A DNA stretch of 46,426 bases, taken from positions 1 through 46,426 of the forward strand of contig CAIQQJ010000036.1 in NCBI GenBank assembly GCA_903873905.1. The letters are read 5' to 3'. Shown piece after piece: positions 25,240 to 41,151 of this stretch. Both the position numbers and the translations under genes were made by a program. The stretch is from an uncultured Flavobacteriales bacterium. GTDB lineage: Bacteria; Bacteroidota; Bacteroidia; Palsa-965. Below the pieces are notes generated by a model. That model was not told where the DNA came from. It searched no databases and saw only the letters and a list, made by a program, of their open reading frames with translations. The stretch's first letter is position 1; each line of letters begins with the position of its first letter.

Positions 25240-25986
25240 ATGAAATCCCTACTCAAAGCAATTTCAACTCGTGCACCGAAAAATTTAGCCAAAGAAAAAA
25301 TCAAGGCAAAAACAATTGTTTACAGAGCGAAAATTGCAGAATTCCAAAAAGTTTTTTACGCAGAACAAAAATACAGCCTGCTCATTATTCTACAAGGAAT
25401 TGATGCTTCGGGAAAAGACGGACTCGTTGCAAATGTTTTTAGTGGATTGAATCCTTTCGGTTGTAATGTTGCAGCATTCAAATCACCAACTCCAGAAGAA
25501 GCTGCGCACGATTTTTTATGGCGAATTCATAACAAGACTCCTGGCAATGGAATGATTCACATTTTCAATCGTTCCCATTATGAAGATCTGCTCGTTCCTG
25601 TAGTGAACAAGCTGATGAATAAGGATCAAATCGATCGACGCATTCATAACATCAACAACTTTGAAAGATTGCTTGAGGATAATGGAACAATTATTCTGAA
25701 ATTTTATCTTCACATTTCACGCGCAGAACAGGAACAACGTTTATTGGAACGACAAACCAATCCAAAAAAATTCTGGAAGCATGATGATCATGACTGGAGC
25801 ACTAGAGAAAAATGGGACGCTTACATGAATGCCTACGAAACAATTTTTCATAATTGCAATAAACCCGAATGGGAAATTGTGCCTGCCGATCAGAATTGGT
25901 ATAAGGAATATCTGGTTTCCAAAAAGGTTTGCGAAACACTCGAAAAACTCAAATTGGAATATCCCAAGGTTGAGAAAACAAAATAA
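25240..25986 (+). CDS. polyphosphate:nucleotide phosphotransferase, PPK2 family (class III-like)
   Basis: Uses polyphosphate to phosphorylate nucleotides. 248 aa with the PPK2 core: Walker A G53-I-D-A-S-G-K59-D-G, then VFSGLNPFGCNV and KSPTPEEAAHDFLWR, and the second phosphate/magnesium motif N110-R-S-H-Y-E-D116. The single PPK2 domain with DASGKDG and HDFLWR resembles class III enzymes (one is known from Cytophaga hutchinsonii) that act on both AMP and ADP; this class call is inference. Monocistronic, between a terminator and a region of gene remains. Confidence 0.93.
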   Translation: MKSLLKAISTRAPKNLAKEKIKAKTIVYRAKIAEFQKVFYAEQKYSLLIILQGIDASGKDGLVANVFSGLNPFGCNVAAFKSPTPEEAAHDFLWRIHNKTPGNGMIHIFNRSHYEDLLVPVVNKLMNKDQIDRRIHNINNFERLLEDNGTIILKFYLHISRAEQEQRLLERQTNPKKFWKHDDHDWSTREKWDAYMNAYETIFHNCNKPEWEIVPADQNWYKEYLVSKKVCETLEKLKLEYPKVEKTK

Positions 25987-26047
25987 ATTCTAGATCGTGT
26001 CCTTTCTTTTTATGGATTCGGAGTAATGCTAGAAAATAACGCCTGTC

Positions 26048-26182
26048 GTGAAATTTGAAACTCGTCCTGGTGGTGTTTGTTTGCACAATAATGTTTTCAT
26101 TGACGAAACAGAGGTTCGGAATCCATGGTTGGTATTTCGTTGCGTTTGTGAAGTGAAAAAGGAATTGGGAAGCAAATATTAA
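26048..26182 (+). CDS. possible small ORF or gene remnant (44 aa, GTG start)
   Basis: Open frame of 44 codons with a GTG start and no upstream ATG; a stop codon lies 18 bases before the GTG. The translation (VKFETRPGGVCLHNNVFIDE, ending KKELGSKY) has protein-like composition with two cysteines in FRCVCEV. It is not recognised. It lies next to the broken T9SS gene and may be the tail of another decayed gene rather than a functional peptide. Confidence 0.25.
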   Translation: MKFETRPGGVCLHNNVFIDETEVRNPWLVFRCVCEVKKELGSKY

Positions 26183-26189
26183 TTCAAAC

Positions 26190-26745
26190 TCAATTGACCT
26201 TTACAACACGAAACATTTTTCTGTTCTCTCCCACTCCAACCATCACAAAATATATTCCTGAATTTTCATTGCTTAAATCAATTGCTGTAGAATTGGAATT
26301 TACCAAGGAGGACTTGAGTTCTTCTCCTAGAAAATTATAAATTGTAATTGTAGTTCCTATTTGTAAATCTCCCTTGATTTCAAAAAGTCCATTCGATGGA
26401 TTCGGGAAAATGGAAATGGATTCTGGATTCGACATTGGAAAAATTCCAGTTGCAACCACATTCGATTCTGTCAACCAAATGGTCATGTTCATGATTAATT
26501 TTTGGTGTATTCGCATTCACACCTGATTGTGCAGGTGAAGGAATAATTGCAGGATTAGATTCATTCCCCTGTCCTGTAACAGCTGGCCCATTTGAAAAAC
26601 CAATGTTGTGCGTGCTCGCATCTATTACCCAATCTGCATTTCCTGCCATCTCTGCACGTGTAGCATCAAACAGAATTTTTATGTTTGTTTGTGAATAAGC
26701 CAAAGTGGAAACAAAAAGAATAATTACAAAAAAATATTTTTTCAT
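26190..26745 (-). pseudogene. decayed T9SS-secreted protein (internal deletion plus frameshift)
   Basis: Two minus-strand frames each hold half of a typical secreted protein. The upstream half (from 26745) has a signal peptide (MKKYFFVIILFVSTLAYSQ) and a start KILFDATRAEMAGNADWVID followed by GNESNPAIIPSPAQSG, which looks like the N-terminus of a larger exported protein. That frame then turns to nonsense near 26510 and stops at 26380. The downstream half is in another frame: its sense part runs from about 26480 to 26190 and ends with a complete T9SS type A sorting domain (ISIFPNPSNGLFEIKGDL ... MFRVVKVN). The central functional domain is missing. It lies 3 bases after the stop of the phospholipase D-like gene. 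Confidence 0.75.
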
Positions 26746-26748
26746 GAT

Positions 26749-28566
26749 TTAATTGTGAGCAATAATTATTTTTTTTGTTATCGTTTTTTTGTCAGTGCAA
26801 ATTCTCATCAAATAAATTCCATCACTTAAGTCAGAGGTATTGATTGGAAATTTAATTCCCCCATTTGACGCTTTTGTCAAAACCTTTTTTCCAGTCATAT
26901 CATAAAGGTCAACTACAAGACCTCCGCTGAAATTAGTTTCAACAAAAATTTCATCGACTGAAGGATTTGGAAAAACGCGCACATTTTCATTTGACAAATA
27001 TGAAATCCCTGTACTCAAGCATTGTGAAGTTAATGTTCCGCTTAGATCAATAAAATTCTGATTAAAGGATTGGTAAAACATGTTTGCAATAATCGCACTA
27101 TGAATGACCAAAGTATTCTCATCATTTTTTGTGTCAGCGGAAGCAGTCCAATTATGCGAACCTGTTAATACCAACGGATCTGAAGTGGAATCGCATTGAT
27201 CCACAAGCAGGAATTTATTGTGATACAAATAAGAACCGGAATAAACCTTGAGCATATTTCCCATCACTGGATTCAAAATCGAATATGCCGAATATGCAAG
27301 GCTGTTCGGATCCATAATTCCCGCCGCATAAATGCCCGATTGAATTTTATTATTAATAGCAGTTGCAACGGTTGATTCCGTGAAGGTATAAACACCGAAA
27401 TACAAATTGTTGTTAGCAGAGCCAATGGCAGCAAGGATTTTATTTTCAACACCGTCCGATGGGCTAAAATACATTTCAACATATCTTCCACCAATATTGA
27501 AACTATGCACAGTATTGTCAGTTTTAAAAGGACCGAATTTTGAAGTCGAAACATTCGCAACCATTCCAGTATCGCCCCACATTTCATTGAATTCAGCCGT
27601 ATAGGCAGCCGCCAAATTTTTGTCTTGAACGATTACAACATTATTGAAATCATAATTAATCTGTTGTGCATCCCAATTGGTGGAACCCGTCCAAACAATT
27701 GGGTCTGTCAATGTGTTGGAATGTGCATCCACAATCATGAATTTGTTATGCATAATGTTGTAAGAGGAAGTTGTCGGACTTGCCAATGTAGGAATAGCCA
27801 AGTTCAATTGAGTCAATCCTGTATTGGAAGAGCTTCCATTGTAGATCCAACGAATTTTTACGCCACGTGAATAGGCATTGTTAATTGCAGTGGCAATATT
27901 GGATATCGCAGCTGATTGAATGAAATTGTAAACGGCAATGTCAAGGCTGTATTTTGCGCGATCGATATAAGCAATCAAAGTATCGTCAATTGTTTGGTTC
28001 AAATATATTGCTGGAACGCCGCTTGAAACGGAAGTATTGACAGGATTATTGAAATACACGATTATTTTCTCAGCACCGCTTGAAGTTGCATTATTACGCA
28101 ACAAGGAATAATCATCAAAAGCAACATTTCCAACTGATTTGACATACGTGAAACGCAAATGATGAGCAAGGGAATTTATATGATAACTGAAACTTGTGCC
28201 TGTTGTTGGAAGTGGATTAATTCTTGCAACCGTATCCCAAGCAATGCTATCAGGACTTTCCATACACACCAACTTGCTGATGGCATCTGTAGAAATTCCT
28301 TTCACCCAAAACTTTACGGTATCAGCCAAGGAAAATGGTGGCGTATTGATGGTCGCCAGCGTCACTCCGAATTTATAAGAATTTGGGCCGCTAACTCCTG
28401 AACTTGCAACACTCGTGTAATTCCCCTGATATGAAAAATTCCATCCCGCAGGTACCGTTGCCAAGTTTCCTAAATAATTTGTGAACTGTTCCAGTTGAAG
28501 AACTGTTTGCGCCGAAACAAAAAACGGAATCGCAAAAAAAGATAAAAGGACAAGCCCCTTGTTCAT
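26749..28566 (-). CDS. secreted phospholipase D-like protein with T9SS sorting domain (605 aa)
   Basis: A signal peptide covers residues 1-19 (MNKGLVLLSFFAIPFFVSA), followed by a beta-rich N-terminal domain of about 150 residues. Two phospholipase D catalytic repeats follow: the H-x-K-x4-D motif MHNKFMIVD near residue 270 with downstream WTGSTNW, and YHNKFLLVD near 447 with LTGSHNW. Both His and Lys pairs are intact, so a PLD-type phosphodiesterase (phospholipase or nuclease) is expected. The C-terminal ~75 residues (VRVFPNPSVDEIFVE ... KKIIIAHN) are a T9SS type A sorting domain, placing it outside the cell or on the surface. Substrate is unknown. Confidence 0.9.
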   Translation of the reverse strand: MNKGLVLLSFFAIPFFVSAQTVLQLEQFTNYLGNLATVPAGWNFSYQGNYTSVASSGVSGPNSYKFGVTLATINTPPFSLADTVKFWVKGISTDAISKLVCMESPDSIAWDTVARINPLPTTGTSFSYHINSLAHHLRFTYVKSVGNVAFDDYSLLRNNATSSGAEKIIVYFNNPVNTSVSSGVPAIYLNQTIDDTLIAYIDRAKYSLDIAVYNFIQSAAISNIATAINNAYSRGVKIRWIYNGSSSNTGLTQLNLAIPTLASPTTSSYNIMHNKFMIVDAHSNTLTDPIVWTGSTNWDAQQINYDFNNVVIVQDKNLAAAYTAEFNEMWGDTGMVANVSTSKFGPFKTDNTVHSFNIGGRYVEMYFSPSDGVENKILAAIGSANNNLYFGVYTFTESTVATAINNKIQSGIYAAGIMDPNSLAYSAYSILNPVMGNMLKVYSGSYLYHNKFLLVDQCDSTSDPLVLTGSHNWTASADTKNDENTLVIHSAIIANMFYQSFNQNFIDLSGTLTSQCLSTGISYLSNENVRVFPNPSVDEIFVETNFSGGLVVDLYDMTGKKVLTKASNGGIKFPINTSDLSDGIYLMRICTDKKTITKKIIIAHN

Positions 28567-28982: not shown

Positions 28983-30938
28983 ATGATCAACATTACCTTA
29001 CCAGACGGTGCCGTTCGTCAATACGAAAAAGGAACCAACGCGCTTCAAGTGGCGCAATCCATCAGTGAAGGACTTGCAAGAAATGTCCTCGGAGCAAAAG
29101 TAAACGGTGAAGTTTGGGATGCAACACGCCCAATTGAAACCGACTCAAGCCTGAATCTTCTTACCTGGAACGATACACAAGGAAAAGAAACCATGTGGCA
29201 TTCTTCTGCGCATTTGATGGCGGAAGCGATTGAATCGTTTTATCCCGGAACGAAATTCGGAATTGGGCCTCCAATTGAAAATGGATTTTATTACGATATA
29301 GATCTTGGCGACAAAATGCTTTCATCTGATGACTTTTCAAAAATCGAAAAGAAAATCATGGAACTTGCGCAGAAGAAAAATTCGTACGTAAGAAAGGAAG
29401 TTTCCAAAGCTGATGCCATTTCCTATTTCCAGGAAAAAGGAGATGAATACAAACTCGATTTGTTGGAAGGATTGGATGATGGAAAAATTACTTTTTATAC
29501 ACAAGGAAATTTCACGGATCTCTGCCGTGGTCCACATATTCCGAATACAGGTTATATCAAAGCTGTAAAATTGTTGAGTATTGCCGGTGCTTATTGGCGC
29601 GGCGATGAAACGAAAAAACAACTCACTCGTGTTTACGCCATCACCTTTCCAAAACAAAAAGAGCTGGATGAATATCTCGTGATGTTGGAAGAAGCAAAAA
29701 AACGAGATCACAGAAAACTCGGAAGAGAATTGGAATTATTTGCCTTCTCAGAAAAAGTTGGAATGGGTTTGCCATTGTGGCTGCCGAATGGTGCTGCCTT
29801 GCGCGATCGTTTGCAAAACTTTTTGCAGAAAGCTCAAATCAAAGCTGGATATCTTCCTGTAATTACTCCGCACATTGGTCACAAACAATTGTATGTGACT
29901 TCTGGTCATTATGAGAAATATGGAAAAGATTCTTTTCAGCCGATCAAAACACCACAAGAAGGCGAAGAGTTTTTTCTTAAACCAATGAACTGTCCGCATC
30001 ACTGCGAAATTTATAAAACAAAACCACGTTCGTACAAAGATCTTCCTGTGCGTTTCGCTGAATTCGGAACTGTATATCGCTACGAACAATCTGGAGAGTT
30101 ACACGGACTCACACGCGTGCGTGGATTCACACAAGACGATGCGCATTTGTTTTGTCGCCCCGATCAAGTGAAAGAGGAATTCTGCAAAGTAATTGATCTT
30201 GTGTTATATGTTTTCAACGCACTAGGATTTACAGATTACACTGCACAAATTTCTTTGCGCGATAAAGTTGATCGTTCAAAATATATCGGCACCGATGAGA
30301 ATTGGGAAAAAGCTGAAAATTCAATCATTGAAGCGGCTGCTGAAAAAGGTTTGAAAACTGTTATCGAATACGGTGAAGCCGCTTTCTACGGACCGAAATT
30401 GGATTTCATGGTGCGTGATGCCATTGGAAGAAAATGGCAATTGGGAACCATTCAAGTTGATTATAATTTGCCAGAACGTTTTGAATTGGAATACACAGGT
30501 TCCGATAACATGAAACATCGTCCTGTAATGATTCACCGTGCGCCCTTCGGATCAATGGAACGTTTCGTTGCGGTTTTGATTGAACATTGTGCAGGGAAAT
30601 TCCCATTGTGGCTGACACCTGAGCAAGTGGGCATCCTTCCAATCAGCGATAAGTACATCGACTATGCCTTGAAAGTGCAGGAAATGCTCAAAAATTCCGA
30701 TATTCGCGCATTCGTTGATGATCGTTCTGAAAAAATTGGAAAGAAAATCCGCGATACTGAATTAAAGAAAGTTCCTTACATGTTAATCCTCGGTGAAAAA
30801 GAAGAAGCTGATGGAACAGTTTCTGTAAGAAAACAAGGAGATGCAGAAAATGGTGACAAAGGCGCAATGCCAATTTCCTCATTCGCAGATTTGATCAACA
30901 CGGAAGTAAAAGAAAGATTAGAATCGTTTAATAAATAA
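28983..30938 (+). CDS. thrS: threonyl-tRNA synthetase
   Basis: Charges tRNA-Thr. 651 aa, complete. The N-terminal TGS domain ([17 protein letters not shown]) is followed by the editing/SAD domain with [16 protein letters not shown] and [13 protein letters not shown]. The class II catalytic core has the zinc-binding segment [10 protein letters not shown] near residue 334, motif 2 ([14 protein letters not shown] ... GFTQDDAH) and motif 3 ([19 protein letters not shown]) near 517. The anticodon-binding domain is C-terminal. It leads the classical thrS-infC-rpmI-rplT order; a heptamer-array hairpin lies between it and infC. Confidence 0.98.
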
Positions 30939-30944
30939 TTAAAT

Positions 30945-31023
30945 GGTAATAGGTAGTAAGTAGTAGGTAGCAGGTACAAAATATTTTCTTACTACTTTCT
31001 ACTTTCTACTTACTACCTATACC
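30945..31023. repeat. inverted heptamer arrays between thrS and infC (site B)
   Basis: Left arm of consecutive 7-base words GGTAATA, GGTAGTA, AGTAGTA, GGTAGCA (30945-30972). Right arm in inverted sense TTACTAC, TTTCTAC, TTTCTAC, TTACTAC, CTATACC (30989-31023). The segment AGGTAGTAAGTAG of the left arm finds a perfect 13-base complement in the right arm, so a long hairpin with a short AT-rich loop can form. Confidence 0.9.
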
Positions 31024-31060
31024 ACGACAATAATAATTCACTGATAATTAACTAAAAACC

Positions 31061-31073
31061 GGAGGTCACAATC
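31061..31073 (+). promoter_or_regulatory. infC ribosome binding site with AUC start
   Basis: GGAGG (31061-31065) stands five bases before ATC (31071-31073). No ATG, GTG or TTG exists between the in-frame stop TAA (31053-31055) and the ATC, while the frame stays open from ATC into infC. A strong Shine-Dalgarno is rare in this window, and rare start codons are characteristic of infC. Confidence 0.75.
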
Positions 31074-31679
31074 GCAGCTCCTTTCAACCCAAACAATCGT
31101 CCACGCCCTACAGTACCAAGCGGACCTCGCCCGCCTTTTCAACGTGGATCAAGAATGCCAAGAAGAGAAGATCTTCACCGTATCAATGAGAAAATTCGCG
31201 ACGTTGCAAATGTTCGTGTAGTTGGTGAAGGAATCGAACAAGGATTGTTTTCCATAGAGAAAGCCCTTGAAATTGCAAAAGACGCAGGTCTAGATCTCGT
31301 CGAAATTGTTCCGAATGCTGATCCTCCAGTATGTCGTGTTGTGGAATATAAAAAGTTCCTATACGAACAGAAAAAGAAACAGAAAGAAATGAAATCCAAA
31401 GCGACAAAGGTGGTCGTAAAAGAAATTCGTTTCGGTCCGCACACGGATGATCATGATTTTAATTTCAAGAGAAATCACGCCATAAAATTCCTAGAAGCAG
31501 GTGCAAAAGTGAAAGCTTATGTAATGTTCCGTGGACGTACAATTGTTTTCAAACAACAAGGAGAAATCCTTCTTTTGAAATTCGCTCAAGAATTGGAAGA
31601 AGTTGGGAAAGTGGAACAATTACCAGTACTTGAAGGAAAACGGATGTTCATGCTACTTGCTCCAAAGAAGAAGAAGTAA
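31071..31679 (+). CDS. infC: translation initiation factor IF-3, apparent ATC start
   Basis: IF-3 binds the 30S subunit and checks the initiator codon-anticodon pair. From the ATC the protein is 202 aa: a Pro/Arg/Asn-rich N-terminal extension ([20 protein letters not shown]), the IF3-N domain ([20 protein letters not shown] ... [20 protein letters not shown]), a charged linker helix ([13 protein letters not shown]) and the IF3-C domain ([17 protein letters not shown] ... [10 protein letters not shown]). A start at the first ATG (31155) would discard 28 codons of clean open frame placed exactly behind GGAGG. In E. coli infC starts with AUU and is autoregulated by discrimination against it; the same logic is inferred here. 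Confidence 0.93.
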
Positions 31680-31704
31680 TAAGCTTTACTATTTATTATT
31701 TAGG

Positions 31705-31738
31705 AAAAGGAATGATCAAATGATTGTTCCTTTTTTTT
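31705..31738 (+). terminator. infC terminator
   Basis: AAAAGGAA and TTCCTTTT pair around a 14-base partly self-complementary loop, followed by T-rich sequence. It separates infC from the secreted repeat-protein gene. Confidence 0.75.
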
Positions 31739-31885
31739 ATTTTCAATCCTTCAATTTTATGGCAAATGAACTGAAATATTAAGTTAAATTGCATTGTGAA
31801 TATTTTTTGGGAACTCAAATCAATGATCAAAATAATTCTCAAATATTAATTTGTCTTTGTTTATTAATAACCCCATTCCATACCG

Positions 31886-34792
31886 ATGAAAAAATCAAAA
31901 ATAAATTACGCGGCATTAGTTGTATGCTTATGCTTCATTTCATTTTCTGCAAATGCACAATTCTGGGGTTCCCCTGTATTAACAGAAACATTTACGGGCA
32001 CTGGAAGCAATAACGGTCAATACACTTCCATGCTAATCGTAAATGGCAATCCAGCAATTTCAAGTTATGATCAAACACATGGCGACTTAATCTATTTAAG
32101 GGCTTTGGATGCCAGCGGTACAACTTGGTCAACTCCAATTTCAGTTGATTTAACTGGAGAAATTGTTGGCATGTATACCTCTATGCAAATCGTGAATGGA
32201 AATCCCGCCATATCCTATTATGATTTTACCAATAAAAATTTGAAATATGTGCGGGCATTGGACGCTTCTGGAAATACCTGGGCTGCACCTGTTACCATTG
32301 ATATTACAGGCGATGTTGGGCAATACACTTCATTGCAAATTGTAAATGGTAATCCCGCAATTTCTTATTATGATGTTACCAATACCAATTTGAAATTTAT
32401 CCGTTCAACAGATGCTTACGGCAATGCTTGGTCTGCTCCTATTTCCATTGATGTTACAGGTGATGTGGGAAAATTCAATTCACTAAAAATAATAAATGGC
32501 AATCCTGCAATTTCTTATTATGACAATACCAATAAGAATTTGATTTTTGTTTGTGCTACGGATGCCTCAGGCACTGCATGGGCAAGTCCTGTTCAAGTAG
32601 ATGTTACGGGAGATGTTGGGCAATACACTTCATTGCAAACCGTCAATGGTAATCCTGCAATTTCCTATTATGATTTTACCAATGGGTATTTGAAATATGT
32701 TGGGGCAACAGATGTAACAGGAACAACTTGGGGTGCACCAGTTTCAATTGACGTTTCAGGCGATAATGGTCAACACACCTGTCTTCAAATTGTGAATGGC
32801 AATCCCGCAATTTCTTATTATGATGGTCTTAATGTTAATCTGAAATATGTGCGTGCTACAAATGTGTCGGGCACAGCATGGGCTGCGCCTGTTTTCATTG
32901 ATCTTACTGGTGATGTTGGAAAATATACTTCCATGCAAATCGTAAATGGAAATCCGGCTATTTCTTATTTTGACAATACCAATTATAATTTGAAATATGT
33001 GCGGGCAACAAATGTTTCTGGGACAGCTTGGGCTACTCCAATTTCATTTGATATTGCAGGCGACTTGGGAGTTTACGCTTCTGGGCAAATTGTAAATGGT
33101 AATCCTGCAATTTCATACTACGATATTACCAATGGAAATTTAAAATATGTAAGAGCTTTGGACACCTACGGAACAACCTGGGGCACTTCCATTAGCATTG
33201 ACATTACAGGCACTGTTGGCTTATACCCTTCCTTGCAAATTGTAAACGGAATGCCTGCCATTTCCTATTATGATTATTCAAATACTGATTTGAAATATGT
33301 CATCGCATTAGATGCATCTGGAAATACTTGGTCAACACCAATTACTGTTGATGTAACAGGCGATGTTGGACAATACACTTCTCTAAAAGTTGTGAATGGA
33401 AATCCTGCTATCTCCTATTATGATCAAACCAATTTAGATTTAAAATATGTTCGTGCATCTGATCCCTCTGGTTCAACTTGGAACACACCCGTTTCTGTTG
33501 CAACTACTGGTAATGTGGGAACTTATACTTCGATGCAAGTTGTGAATGGTAATCCTGCAATTTCATATGTTGATGCAAGTGCTGGTGATCTAAAATATGA
33601 AAGGGCTACCGATGCTTCTGGTACCGCTTGGGCTGGGCCAATTACTGTTGATGCAGCTGGCAATACAGGAGCTTTCAATTCGTTGCAAATCGTAAATGGA
33701 AATCCAGCTATCTCTTATTGGAACATTACAAATGGTAGTCTGAAATATATTCGTGCATCAAATGTTTCTGGAACTGCTTGGTCTGCCGCAATAACCGTTG
33801 ATGCATCTCCTTCTGTTGGACAAGGCACATCACTCCAAATTGTAAATGGCAATCCGGCTATTTCCTATTTTGATTTTGGCAACAATGATTTGAAATATGC
33901 ACGAGCTACAAATGTTTCTGGAACAACATGGGCAACACCTGTAACATTGGATGCAGCAGGAAGTACAGGGGAATTCACAACGCTAATTCCAATTGGAACA
34001 GGTGCTGGGATTGCCTATTACAATAGATCTGAAGCATTTCCCTATTTCATATTGGGGACAGTATGTCATAACCCAACTATTCCAACACTTTCTGCAAGTA
34101 TCACAACCATATGTGGTGGCGCAAGTACAACGTTGACAGCAAGTGGAACCTTAAACGATGCAACAAGTTGGCAATGGTATACGGGCTCCTGCGGGGGAAC
34201 TGTAGTAGGAAGTGGTGCCAGCGTTACCGTTGCTCCAAACACAACTACAACCTATTACGCACGCGGAGTTGGTGCATGTGCGATTCCAGGGCTTTGTGGA
34301 AATATTACCATAAACGTTATTCCAGTTGACACATCAGTTTCTATTCTTAATTCCACTTTTACTGCAAACGCAACTAGTGCAACTTACCAATGGATTGACT
34401 GCAACAATGGTCATTTGCCAATTGTAGGACAAACCAATCAAAGTTTTACCGCAATAATTAATGGCAGTTATGCTGTCATTGTAAATCAAAATAGTTGTTC
34501 AGATACTTCTTCCTGCTATGTTATACTCAATACAGGAATTGAAGGGAATAATAAGCATTCAGATATCACTATTTTCCCAAATCCAACCAGCGGGATTTTC
34601 TCTATCAAGAGTGATAATTTGAAAATCAAAACTGTGGACGTTTTCAATATCATTGGAGAAAATATTTTCCAATCAGAATACCCTAATGCAACAACCCAAA
34701 TTGATCTTTCTGAAAAAGCAAATGGTATTTATTTCATCACCATAAAAACAGAAACAGAATCCTTCACCCAAAAAATTATTGTTAATCATTGA
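31886..34792 (+). CDS. T9SS-secreted tandem-repeat protein (968 aa) between infC and rpmI
   Basis: A signal peptide covers about residues 1-25 (MKKSKINYAALVVCLCF ... NAQ). Residues 44-694 are thirteen consecutive ~50-residue repeats plus a decayed fourteenth. Each has the core IVNGNPAISYYD, then a L-K-Y-V-R-A pattern and S-G-x-x-W, ending in a beta-strand with D-V-T-G. The regular strand pattern suggests a beta-propeller or beta-solenoid (inference). An Ig-like module with four cysteines follows (about 720-810; SWQWYTGSCGGTVVGSG). The last ~85 residues are a T9SS type A sorting domain (ITIFPNPTSGIFSIKSD ... KIIVNH). Surface or extracellular; ligand unknown. The position is odd because infC, rpmI and rplT are normally contiguous. 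Confidence 0.9.
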   Translation: MKKSKINYAALVVCLCFISFSANAQFWGSPVLTETFTGTGSNNGQYTSMLIVNGNPAISSYDQTHGDLIYLRALDASGTTWSTPISVDLTGEIVGMYTSMQIVNGNPAISYYDFTNKNLKYVRALDASGNTWAAPVTIDITGDVGQYTSLQIVNGNPAISYYDVTNTNLKFIRSTDAYGNAWSAPISIDVTGDVGKFNSLKIINGNPAISYYDNTNKNLIFVCATDASGTAWASPVQVDVTGDVGQYTSLQTVNGNPAISYYDFTNGYLKYVGATDVTGTTWGAPVSIDVSGDNGQHTCLQIVNGNPAISYYDGLNVNLKYVRATNVSGTAWAAPVFIDLTGDVGKYTSMQIVNGNPAISYFDNTNYNLKYVRATNVSGTAWATPISFDIAGDLGVYASGQIVNGNPAISYYDITNGNLKYVRALDTYGTTWGTSISIDITGTVGLYPSLQIVNGMPAISYYDYSNTDLKYVIALDASGNTWSTPITVDVTGDVGQYTSLKVVNGNPAISYYDQTNLDLKYVRASDPSGSTWNTPVSVATTGNVGTYTSMQVVNGNPAISYVDASAGDLKYERATDASGTAWAGPITVDAAGNTGAFNSLQIVNGNPAISYWNITNGSLKYIRASNVSGTAWSAAITVDASPSVGQGTSLQIVNGNPAISYFDFGNNDLKYARATNVSGTTWATPVTLDAAGSTGEFTTLIPIGTGAGIAYYNRSEAFPYFILGTVCHNPTIPTLSASITTICGGASTTLTASGTLNDATSWQWYTGSCGGTVVGSGASVTVAPNTTTTYYARGVGACAIPGLCGNITINVIPVDTSVSILNSTFTANATSATYQWIDCNNGHLPIVGQTNQSFTAIINGSYAVIVNQNSCSDTSSCYVILNTGIEGNNKHSDITIFPNPTSGIFSIKSDNLKIKTVDVFNIIGENIFQSEYPNATTQIDLSEKANGIYFITIKTETESFTQKIIVNH
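32015..33967 (+). repeat. coding tandem repeat, 13 units of about 150 bp
   Basis: Thirteen in-frame units (first 153 bp, the rest 150 bp) within the 968-aa gene. The IVNGNPAISYYD core is nearly invariant (one unit has NGMPAIS, others vary at the last positions), while the 12 residues after it vary most. Confidence 0.95.
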
Positions 34793-34809
34793 TTTTTTAG
34801 GTCGGGGTT

Positions 34810-34926
34810 ATTGGGTGATTAAGAGATTAGGTAATTGGGTTAAATATGGAATTAGGCATTGGGTGAAAACCTGATGCCTTTTTTCTATCACCCTTCATCA
34901 TTTAATCGCCCAATAAACCCATCACC
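34810..34926. repeat. inverted octamer arrays upstream of rpmI (site C)
   Basis: Left arm with consecutive 8-base words ATTGGGTG, ATTAAGAG, ATTAGGTA, ATTGGGTT, AAATATGG, AATTAGGC, ATTGGGTG (34810-34865). Right arm, in inverted sense, CCCTTCAT, CATTTAAT, CGCCCAAT, AAACCCAT, CACC (34891-34926). The arms are complementary in pattern and could form a long hairpin with a smaller terminator hairpin in the loop. Confidence 0.85.
34854..34885 (+). terminator. terminator of the 968-aa repeat-protein gene
   Basis: AGGCAT and ATGCCT pair with an inner GGT-GAAA-ACC stem and tetraloop, followed by TTTTTT. It lies inside the octamer array, about 60 bases after the stop. Confidence 0.8.
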
Positions 34927-34964
34927 TTTTTCCTTCATTCACTATGTAATTTCCCAAAAACTAC

Positions 34965-34972
34965 TATCTTTG
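34965..34972 (+). promoter_or_regulatory. rpmI-rplT -7 promoter box
   Basis: TATCTTTG matches TAnnTTTG exactly and lies 45 bases before the rpmI ATG. It gives the two ribosomal protein genes a promoter of their own, independent of infC. Confidence 0.65.
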
Positions 34973-35017
34973 CCGCCCCTAAGGAACGTTCCGAAGGGAA
35001 AAAACAAGAATAGTTTT

Positions 35018-35212: not shown

Positions 35213-35325
35213 AATTGTCGCAATAGCAGTTTCACCTGGTTTATTCGAAAAACATTAAGTTAAACCCGGCTCTCAAGCATTCAAGATCTCTTTAATGAGA
35301 CGCTGACAGCCAAAACGAAAAACAA

Positions 35326-35798: not shown

Positions 35799-36224
35799 AT
35801 GAATCAAACAAAATATCCCATCTCTATTGAACTGAGAATTGATTTCAGTGAGCTTGATCTTCTAGGTCATGTGAATAATGTCAATTACTTCAAATACATT
35901 CAGGCTTCACGCATAAAATACTGGGAAACAGTTGGCATCAATCCGGGTTTCAGTACCGACCAGATCGTTCCTGTGCTTGCTTCCACTTCCTGTCAATTTA
36001 AAAAGCAATTATTATATCCAGGAAATATCATTGTTAAAACAGGAATCAATTTCATCAAAACAACCAGCTTCGGTATTCATCATCAGATTTTCAATCATCA
36101 AAATGAACTTTGTGCGGAAGCGGAAGATATTATTGTAATGTTGGATTTCAAGAGCAATATAAAAGTTCCTGTTTCTGCAGAAATGAGGGCAATGGTGGAG
36201 AAGCTTGAAGGAAGAAAATATTGA
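35799..36224 (+). CDS. acyl-CoA thioesterase, 4HBT/YbgC-like hotdog fold
   Basis: 141-aa hotdog-fold thioesterase. The segment FSELDLLGHVNNVNYFKYIQ (about residues 15-34) is the 4HBT signature with the catalytic Asp and the His-Val-Asn-Asn loop; RIKYWETVG and a later VASTSCQFKKQLLYPG agree. It hydrolyses an acyl-CoA thioester in the cytosol; the acyl group is unknown. Monocistronic, with its own -7 box. Confidence 0.88.
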   Translation: MNQTKYPISIELRIDFSELDLLGHVNNVNYFKYIQASRIKYWETVGINPGFSTDQIVPVLASTSCQFKKQLLYPGNIIVKTGINFIKTTSFGIHHQIFNHQNELCAEAEDIIVMLDFKSNIKVPVSAEMRAMVEKLEGRKY

Positions 36225-40380: not shown

Positions 40381-41010
40381 ATGATGCAATACCCGTCGAA
40401 ACTCGTTGAAGAAGCTGTTGAGGCTTTTGCCCAATTGCCTGGCGTTGGACGCAAAACGGCATTGCGGTACGTGTTGCATTTGTTGCGACAAGATGAAGCG
40501 ACTGTAAAAAAATTCGGGAATGTTTTTTCACGCTTGAGAGAGGAATTGAAATATTGCAAAACCTGTTTCAACATCAGTGATCATGAAACATGTTCCATTT
40601 GTTCAACAACAAAACGTGATCATGGAATTGTTTGTGTGGTGGAAGATGTGCGTGATGTAATGGCGATTGAGAATACACATCAATACATTGGCGTTTACCA
40701 TGTACTTGGCGGAATTATTTCTCCGATGGATGGAATTGGTCCGAATGATTTGCAAATTGATTCTTTGGTACAACGTGTTGCTGCAGGAAATGTGCATGAA
40801 ATCATCATGGCACTCAGCACAACGATGGAAGGTGATACCACGAATTTTTTCATTTACAAGAAGCTGAAGGAATTCAACATTCCCGTTTCAACCATTGCGC
40901 GTGGAATTTCCATTGGCGATGAATTGGAATATGCGGATGAAATTACATTGGGAAGATCGATAGTAAATCGGATTCCGTATGAAAAGACGTTTTCTTCTAG
41001 AGGGAATTGA
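40381..41010 (+). CDS. recR: recombination protein RecR
   Basis: Ring-forming mediator of RecA loading (RecFOR pathway). 209 aa, normal length. It has a helix-hairpin-helix [20 protein letters not shown] (15-34), a zinc finger C59-x2-C62-x8-C71-x2-C74, and a Toprim domain from [16 protein letters not shown] (82-97) with [18 protein letters not shown]. The C-terminal part has [18 protein letters not shown] (then EITLGRSI). The stop codon TGA (41008-41010) overlaps the first bases of the octamer array. Confidence 0.97.
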
Positions 41011-41088
41011 TGTGCTGATGTGCTGATGTGCTGATGTGCTGATATGCTGATGTGCTGATATGCTGATATGCTGATGTGCTGATGTGCT
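41009..41088 (+). repeat. ten tandem octamers after recR (site D, left arm)
   Basis: Ten exact 8-base steps: GATGTGCT four times, GATATGCT, GATGTGCT, GATATGCT twice, GATGTGCT twice. Only one position varies (G/A). The inverse of the same word occurs at 41626-41665, on the other side of the four-helix-bundle gene. Confidence 0.98.
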
Positions 41089-41151
41089 AATGAAGGGTGA
41101 AGGGTGAAAAACAAATCTACCTATGGTAGATATTCCAAATTGGTTTTATTT

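Follow-up and report, generated by a model that had tools for sequence, protein, structure and literature searches.

Introduction

The C-terminal domain of ribosomal protein L20 binds the junction of helices 40 and 41 (H40-H41) of 23S rRNA (PMC6962249), and rRNA mimicry has been reported for the cis-acting leader RNAs of L20 operons (PMC7247131). Such leaders have been reported for Gammaproteobacteria and Firmicutes and proposed for Deltaproteobacteria; common to the known ones are two consecutive G-C pairs and an AA dimer, with a helix in between (PMC7247131). The Rfam family L20_leader (RF00558), a cis RNA of the L20 operon in Bacillota, spans 127 positions, and the Bacillus subtilis element, which precedes infC, works by attenuation (PMC10931766). 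The L20 operator of Escherichia coli exerts translational control through an irregular hairpin resembling the 23S site (PMC10931766); there, a pseudoknot and a hairpin upstream of rpmI control rpmI, to which rplT is translationally coupled (PMC6962249). Here, we analysed a 46,426-nt stretch of DNA from an uncultured Flavobacteriales bacterium (contig CAIQQJ010000036.1; hereafter, the window), in which infC is separated from rpmI and rplT, and describe a structured RNA (35259-35317, + strand) in the spacer between rpmI (L35; 35018-35212) and rplT (L20; 35326-35670) as a candidate L20 leader.

For Bacteroidia, the leaders tabulated in PMC7247131 are those of L13 and S4, with no L20 leader entered for Bacteroidetes. 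Nor was an L20 leader in Bacteroidetes found in the open-licence PMC literature, supplements excluded, as covered by passages of PMC7247131, PMC10931766, PMC9723704, PMC2864571, PMC6097659, PMC9976891 and PMC8710568; the supplement of PMC9723704, which holds 64 structured 5' regions of Flavobacterium psychrophilum, falls outside this statement.

Results

A covarying RNA element lies between rpmI and rplT

Alignment of the window with genome G004, its closest relative (infC 96% identical), showed strong conservation of the rpmI-rplT spacer. In the window, the element consists of an outer helix, P1 (35268-35278 with 35302-35311), a 5' loop, AUUCAAGA (35279-35286), an inner helix, P2 (UCUC/GAGA; 35287-35290 with 35297-35300), and a single C (35301) on the other strand, with rplT starting 14 nt after P1. 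The motifs AACC (85/98) and AAG (96/98) recur across rpmI-rplT spacers, and the usual order is a helix, AAG, a second helix, C, an A-rich tail and then rplT.

A seed of 21 sequences, picked by eye, with the structure drawn by eye and the alignment made without structure, had 94.5% paired cells, and 11 of its 13 pairs had changed on both sides. Its covariation score was 0.657, compared to 0.270 for shuffled alignments and at most 0.160 when partners were slid. None of 500 shuffles reached the paired percentage or the covariation score of the seed, and sliding the partners left 33-47% pairing. In an 81-row alignment fitted to a model (A3), 94.1% of cells were paired and the covariation score was 0.861 (shuffled, 0.252). 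The spacer element is a covarying structured RNA.

A further pairing is possible ahead of P1. A GGTT able to pair with the conserved AACC was present in 36 of 79 spacers compared to 5.3 after shuffling (window, 35240-35266), and would perhaps form an alternative or second hairpin.

The element is widespread in one class and fixed in position

The model built from the seed matched 59 of 97 sources (38 of them non-seed), all at the place matched by a second model (R2). R2 itself matched 81 of the 97 sources, and all 81 matches end 6-14 nt before rplT. Whole-genome scans, which were blind to genes, matched at least 53/197 and at least 132/295 genomes, with a single match in each matched genome. 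In a sample of the phylum, at least 22/296 genomes were matched, all 22 from the same class and again with one match each; these draws overlap and few candidates were scored per genome, so all such counts are lower bounds. All 41 best-scoring whole-genome loci that were fetched carried the element between rpmI and rplT, some of these genomes being shared with the 97 sources.

Known Rfam families did not account for the element. Searching the window, the stretches of eight relatives and ten leader loci with Rfam gave nothing over threshold except two tRNAs. RF00558 scored over its cut-off in none of 60 genomes of the class; 19 of these genomes had sub-threshold matches, and none of those listed lay at known leader positions. 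The corresponding control search gave matches in 3/14 control genomes, two of them over the cut-off.

The junction of the proposed leader resembles the L20 site of 23S rRNA

In Bacteroidia, the H40-H41 junction of 23S rRNA reads GGU-CCCCAAAU-helix-U-ACC, and in E. coli GGU-CCCAAAGU-helix-C-ACC (helix assigned by eye). For the candidate leader, the corresponding sequences are AGC-AUUCAAGA-helix-C-GCU (window) and AGC-AUUAAAGU-helix-C-GCU (G004). The 5' loop of the leader is most often 8 nt long (42/81), and otherwise 7 nt (23/81), 9 nt (14/81) or 6 nt (2/81). It ends in AAG plus one nucleotide in 78/81 rows, with AAG at the same place in 23S H40-H41, and the strand opposite is a single C in all 81 model-fitted rows. 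With respect to the G-C feature of known leaders, one G-C pair is present in 81/81, and the neighbouring pair is C-G in 45, U-A in 25, U-G in 8 and A-U in 3.

The arrangement differs from each of the described systems. Compared to RF00558, the Bacteroidia element is short (~60 nt) and lies between rpmI and rplT; compared to the E. coli operator, it is one element directly before rplT. The deltaproteobacterial L20 r-leader candidate, which keeps the two consecutive G-C pairs and the AA dimer (PMC7247131), belongs to another lineage and is likened to the Bacteroidia element here by its description rather than in scaffold detail. We infer L20 binding and repression from these likenesses, and read the element as a probable L20 autoregulatory leader that is distinct from Rfam L20_leader and apparently undescribed.

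A promoter-like box and a terminator-like hairpin accompany separation from infC

The gene order on the + strand of the window is thrS, infC, a 968-aa open reading frame (ORF), rpmI and rplT, with 3,338 bp between infC and rpmI. infC (IF3; 31071-31679, Pfam IF3_N/IF3_C) is followed by a terminator-like hairpin with a T-run (31700-31747, + strand). Upstream of rpmI (Pfam Ribosomal_L35p) lies TATCTTTG (34965-34972, + strand), a promoter-like sequence of the Bacteroidota -7 type, 53 nt 5' of the gene. Between box and gene, folding of the window sequence gave a short hairpin (34977-34998, + strand; CCCU-AA-GGA..UCC-GA-AGGG), at the point where the rpmI mRNA presumably begins. rplT was assigned by Pfam Ribosomal_L20.

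To place this arrangement, 101 related loci were compared (80 public and 21 others, some from the same genomes). rpmI begins 4-141 bp after infC in 90 of these, which bears out the statement of a first-pass annotation of the window that infC, rpmI and rplT are usually neighbours. The gap is 1.6-1.7 kb in two loci, and in nine rpmI was not found downstream on the available stretch. A TAnnTTTG box within 100 nt before rpmI was absent from all 91 contiguous loci (~2.7 expected at the window density of 0.03 per 100 nt), and was present in 14 of 15 separated loci, namely 7/8 with infC and rpmI uncoupled and 7/7 with rpmI detached. The own -7 box that the annotation had assigned to rpmI is one instance of a promoter-like sequence seen at other separated loci.

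rplT was found in eight of nine genomes searched, comprising eight of the nine without a nearby rpmI together with L074; L093, whose contig ends 983 bp after infC, was left out. In all seven detached genomes, rpmI still adjoins rplT, with the box 28-32 nt before rpmI, and the leader is kept in six of them. Separation was mirrored at the infC end, where a strong terminator-like hairpin (score ≥10, a cut chosen after the scores had been seen) follows infC in 14/17 separated and 0/91 contiguous loci; weak hairpins occur in 5/91 contiguous loci.

Two observations were made on the short hairpin before rpmI, both by eye. It occurs at the same place in the uncoupled genomes L031-L036, with varying sequence, and is not evident in the detached genomes. 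We considered whether it might be a further L20 site and rejected this reading, since the likeness of CUAAGG..CCGAAG to 23S, judged by eye, is confined to the species of the window.

An old split with differing contents

We further investigated the junction across the family (12 genomes), of which eight had detectable infC and rpmI; G001, G003, G009 and G010, without an infC or rpmI match, were left out of the scoring. All six genomes of the window's genus and one neighbouring genus were uncoupled (gap, 207-6,132 bp), and both genomes of a third genus were contiguous (40-47 bp including the stop codon). A FastTree phylogeny of thrS, infC, rpmI and rplT from 20 loci separated the six uncoupled genomes from the rest with a support of 1.0, and placed the third genus as their nearest kin with a support of only 0.50. 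All six carry the terminator-like hairpin after infC, the TAnnTTTG box and, by eye, the short hairpin before rpmI.

The contents of the junction differed from genome to genome. In G004 the junction is empty (207-210 bp). G006 has a GH18 protein with a type IX secretion system (T9SS) tail, G002 a 23S-IVP protein, G007 a polysaccharide flippase-like protein, and in G005 the gap of 6.1 kb holds an R2K ATP-grasp protein plus 449-aa, 830-aa and 131-aa ORFs without Pfam matches. The first-pass annotation had treated the 968-aa gene as what breaks the operon, and regarded the same interruption throughout a family as the mark of an old, stable arrangement. Because the terminator-like hairpin, box and short hairpin occur without an insert (G004) and with other inserts (four genomes), the 968-aa insert is not the cause of the split. 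The comparison of synteny thus gave a divided answer: two of the three genera have the split in common, which makes it old, and what fills it is not the same. By this sequence comparison, infC and rpmI were uncoupled before the 968-aa gene arrived.

Neighbouring junctions differed too between the window and G004, over ~17 kb compared. The genes at 25240-25986 and 26749-28566, upstream of thrS, and a thioesterase-like gene 3' of rplT (35799-36224) have no room in G004, and the fabI-recN interval is ~3.4 kb longer in G004 (gene names assigned from sequences). Gene turnover at junctions thus appears common between these species, and since the neighbouring junctions differ as well, we do not call infC//rpmI a special hotspot; it is not a proven one. 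As a side observation, the 26749-28566 gene has a T9SS-like tail and a weak match to the tail of the 968-aa protein.

The 968-aa protein is a probable T9SS cargo in an unusual place

The gap in the window is filled by a 968-aa secreted repeat protein (31886-34792, + strand; ORF, Pfam). Its T9SS assignment in the first-pass annotation was upheld by a match to the C-terminal sorting domain Por_Secre_tail (PF18962; 56.2 bits, cut-off 27). An Ig_7 domain (Pfam), a signal-like N-terminus (by eye) and a repeat of ~50 aa, seen as a 150-bp period by the repeat finder, were also present. A low-confidence model built from three related sequences (pLDDT 66.6, pTM 0.40) has four strands per 50 residues in propeller-like blades, and propeller lectins were among its PDB matches. 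The protein thus shares Por_Secre_tail and Ig_7 with other T9SS-exported repeat proteins of Bacteroidota, and its model is like beta-propeller lectins; compared to those proteins, only the place of its gene is unusual. A relative in G003 (61% identical), a genome without an infC or rpmI match, lies in another neighbourhood. The terminator that had been claimed for the gene was recognised by eye as a terminator-like GGCAT..ATGCC-TTTTTT inside a long hairpin at 34810-34922, which is probably the 3' end of the cargo transcript.

Repeat arrays and alternative explanations

Two repeat arrays had made a repeat-mediated insertion seem conceivable. Both exist, and in either case the array makes up one of the two arms of a long hairpin (-36 and -57 kcal/mol for the heptamer and octamer arrays, respectively). 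The heptamer array (30945-30976, repeat finder) belongs to the hairpin at 30945-31016 (repeat finder, folding), in the thrS-infC spacer and not at the junction. The octamer array is imperfect (34810-34865), was read by eye, was not reported by the repeat finder at a score of 30, and belongs to the hairpin at 34810-34922, which was found by folding and not by the stem scan.

An explanation in which the 968-aa gene recently entered a functional infC-rpmI-rplT operon by way of the repeats and disrupted it, with a new promoter rescuing rpmI, would draw on arrays lying loosely on both sides and on a closest relative without the insert. We consider it very unlikely, as the repeat units differ, neither array bounds the insert, the heptamer array is absent from the thrS-infC spacer of G004, and the junction of G004, though empty, is uncoupled and carries the same terminator-like hairpin, box and 5' hairpin as four genomes with other inserts. 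No sign of a mobile element was seen either, with no recombinase (the sole long ORF in the window gap encodes the 968-aa protein) and no matching array ends; the flanks have diverged too far for a target-site duplication to be recognised. A dedicated integration hotspot of a cargo-swapping mobile system would explain five different contents and one empty state in six genomes, and is just as improbable. Pfam scans of eight cargo proteins (the 968-aa protein, five cargoes of the family and two further ORFs of G005; three of the eight without a Pfam match) revealed no recombinase, and differences at 25240-28566, 35799-36224 and fabI-recN make the turnover look unexceptional; the idea was dropped after this comparison of neighbouring junctions. 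That the insert is a mis-joined contig is scarcely credible, despite a draft genome in 181 contigs, as the junction is internal to a contig of 46 kb and has an intact terminator and an intact box at its two sides, and other assemblies have the same kind of flanks around other contents.

The remaining alternative concerns the RNA itself, which might be real and yet bind L35 or another factor, or be cleaved by an RNase and so determine the rpmI:rplT ratio. In its favour, the strict G-C/G-C feature is present in 45/81 rows and L20 binding is predicted from similarity. It is nevertheless unlikely, given that the element stands directly before rplT in 81/81 matches, and that it agrees with the H40-H41 junction, where the L20 C-terminal domain binds (PMC6962249), in the size of the loop, the place of AA and the single nucleotide opposite.

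Several observations weigh against an L20 leader in a self-contained rpmI-rplT unit. The seed was chosen by eye and is therefore a biased sample of covariation, the matches outside the seed being the independent evidence. Alignments A2 and A3 were fitted to models, so their counts lean towards structure, and the number of A3 pairs changed on both sides (12) was reached by 168/500 shuffles, unlike the other four measures. When 94 spacers were aligned without selection, RNAalifold found almost no consensus structure (-3.9), probably owing to their unequal lengths. R2 had no match in 16/97 sources, the large scans left over half of their genomes unmatched (132/295 matched, and 22/296 in the phylum sample), and one detached genome, L198, had no credible leader match (13 bits). 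Of the features of known L20 leaders, the AA dimer is matched and the two-G-C-pair feature fits only partly. At the separated loci, L074 is uncoupled without a TAnnTTTG box, a 563-aa ORF filling its gap, and the infC terminator is missing in L079 and L119 and weak in L074.

Other features of the locus

infC is preceded by thrS (threonyl-tRNA synthetase; 28983-30938, + strand; ORF, Pfam). The infC start probably lies upstream of the first ATG (31155), at an in-frame ATC (31071) behind GGAGGT. In E. coli, IF3 is autoregulated by way of a rare start codon. By a raw count, 51/108 loci (window, 31060-31073) have an apparent infC start at one of the rare codons ATA, ATC and ATT, preceded by a GGAGG-type Shine-Dalgarno sequence, and the number rises to 56/108 if any start codon is allowed. 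Shine-Dalgarno pairing is rarely used in this bacterial group (PMC9976891).

Long intergenic hairpins with arms repeating every 7 or 8 nt were also found beyond the two described above; together, they lie at window 30945-31016 and 34810-34922, L203:2776-2862 and L206:408-519, each with its own unit. A scan at a stem score of 18 that covered the window and eight further stretches of its genome found three hairpins of 7-nt period; five stretches from three congeners had none. Lag-7 identity of the heptamer hairpins was 0.81 in the window, 0.57 in L203 and 0.78 in L206, and they are possibly related to the heptamer repeats of Beggiatoaceae (PMC4679880). A further octamer array, TGATGTGC, lies at 41008-41092 of the window (10.6 copies, 93% matches).

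Discussion

The interruption between infC and rpmI is itself ordinary, and the interest of the locus lies in the unit downstream. We think it quite probable that rpmI-rplT in Bacteroidia is a self-regulating unit with an inner L20 leader, that infC was split off once in the ancestor of two genera, and that the junction was then filled in various ways. It is likely, too, that much of the class Bacteroidia controls L20 via an undescribed rpmI-rplT leader whose loop is a near-copy of the 23S H40-H41 junction, a portable module that would explain the repeated shedding of infC.

According to this self-regulation model, free L20, in excess over rRNA, would bind the element and stabilise P1, and the bound element would block ribosome access to rplT, stopping its translation. 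infC could then be cut off without loss of control, given a new rpmI promoter and an infC terminator, activities that we presume for the box and the hairpin. The position of the leader would be the reason that the split is tolerated, because control lies neither upstream of infC, as in Bacillus, nor upstream of rpmI, as in E. coli. L20 does not control infC in E. coli either (PMC10931766). IF3 need not share the rpmI-rplT transcript, so the two genes could be relocated or severed together. Uncoupling would have occurred once in the ancestor of the window's genus and the neighbouring genus, and separately elsewhere among the relatives. The opened junction would behave like other intergenic sites, where genes come and go, here with a T9SS-secreted repeat protein.

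If true, this would add a further solution to L20 control, one used by Bacteroidia, in which the loop and the rRNA site correspond at almost every position. It would also be a clean case for the repeated rise of rRNA mimicry, in a group that rarely uses Shine-Dalgarno pairing. Finally, the locus suggests a rule for operon decay, in which a conserved junction can break once both sides have their own control.

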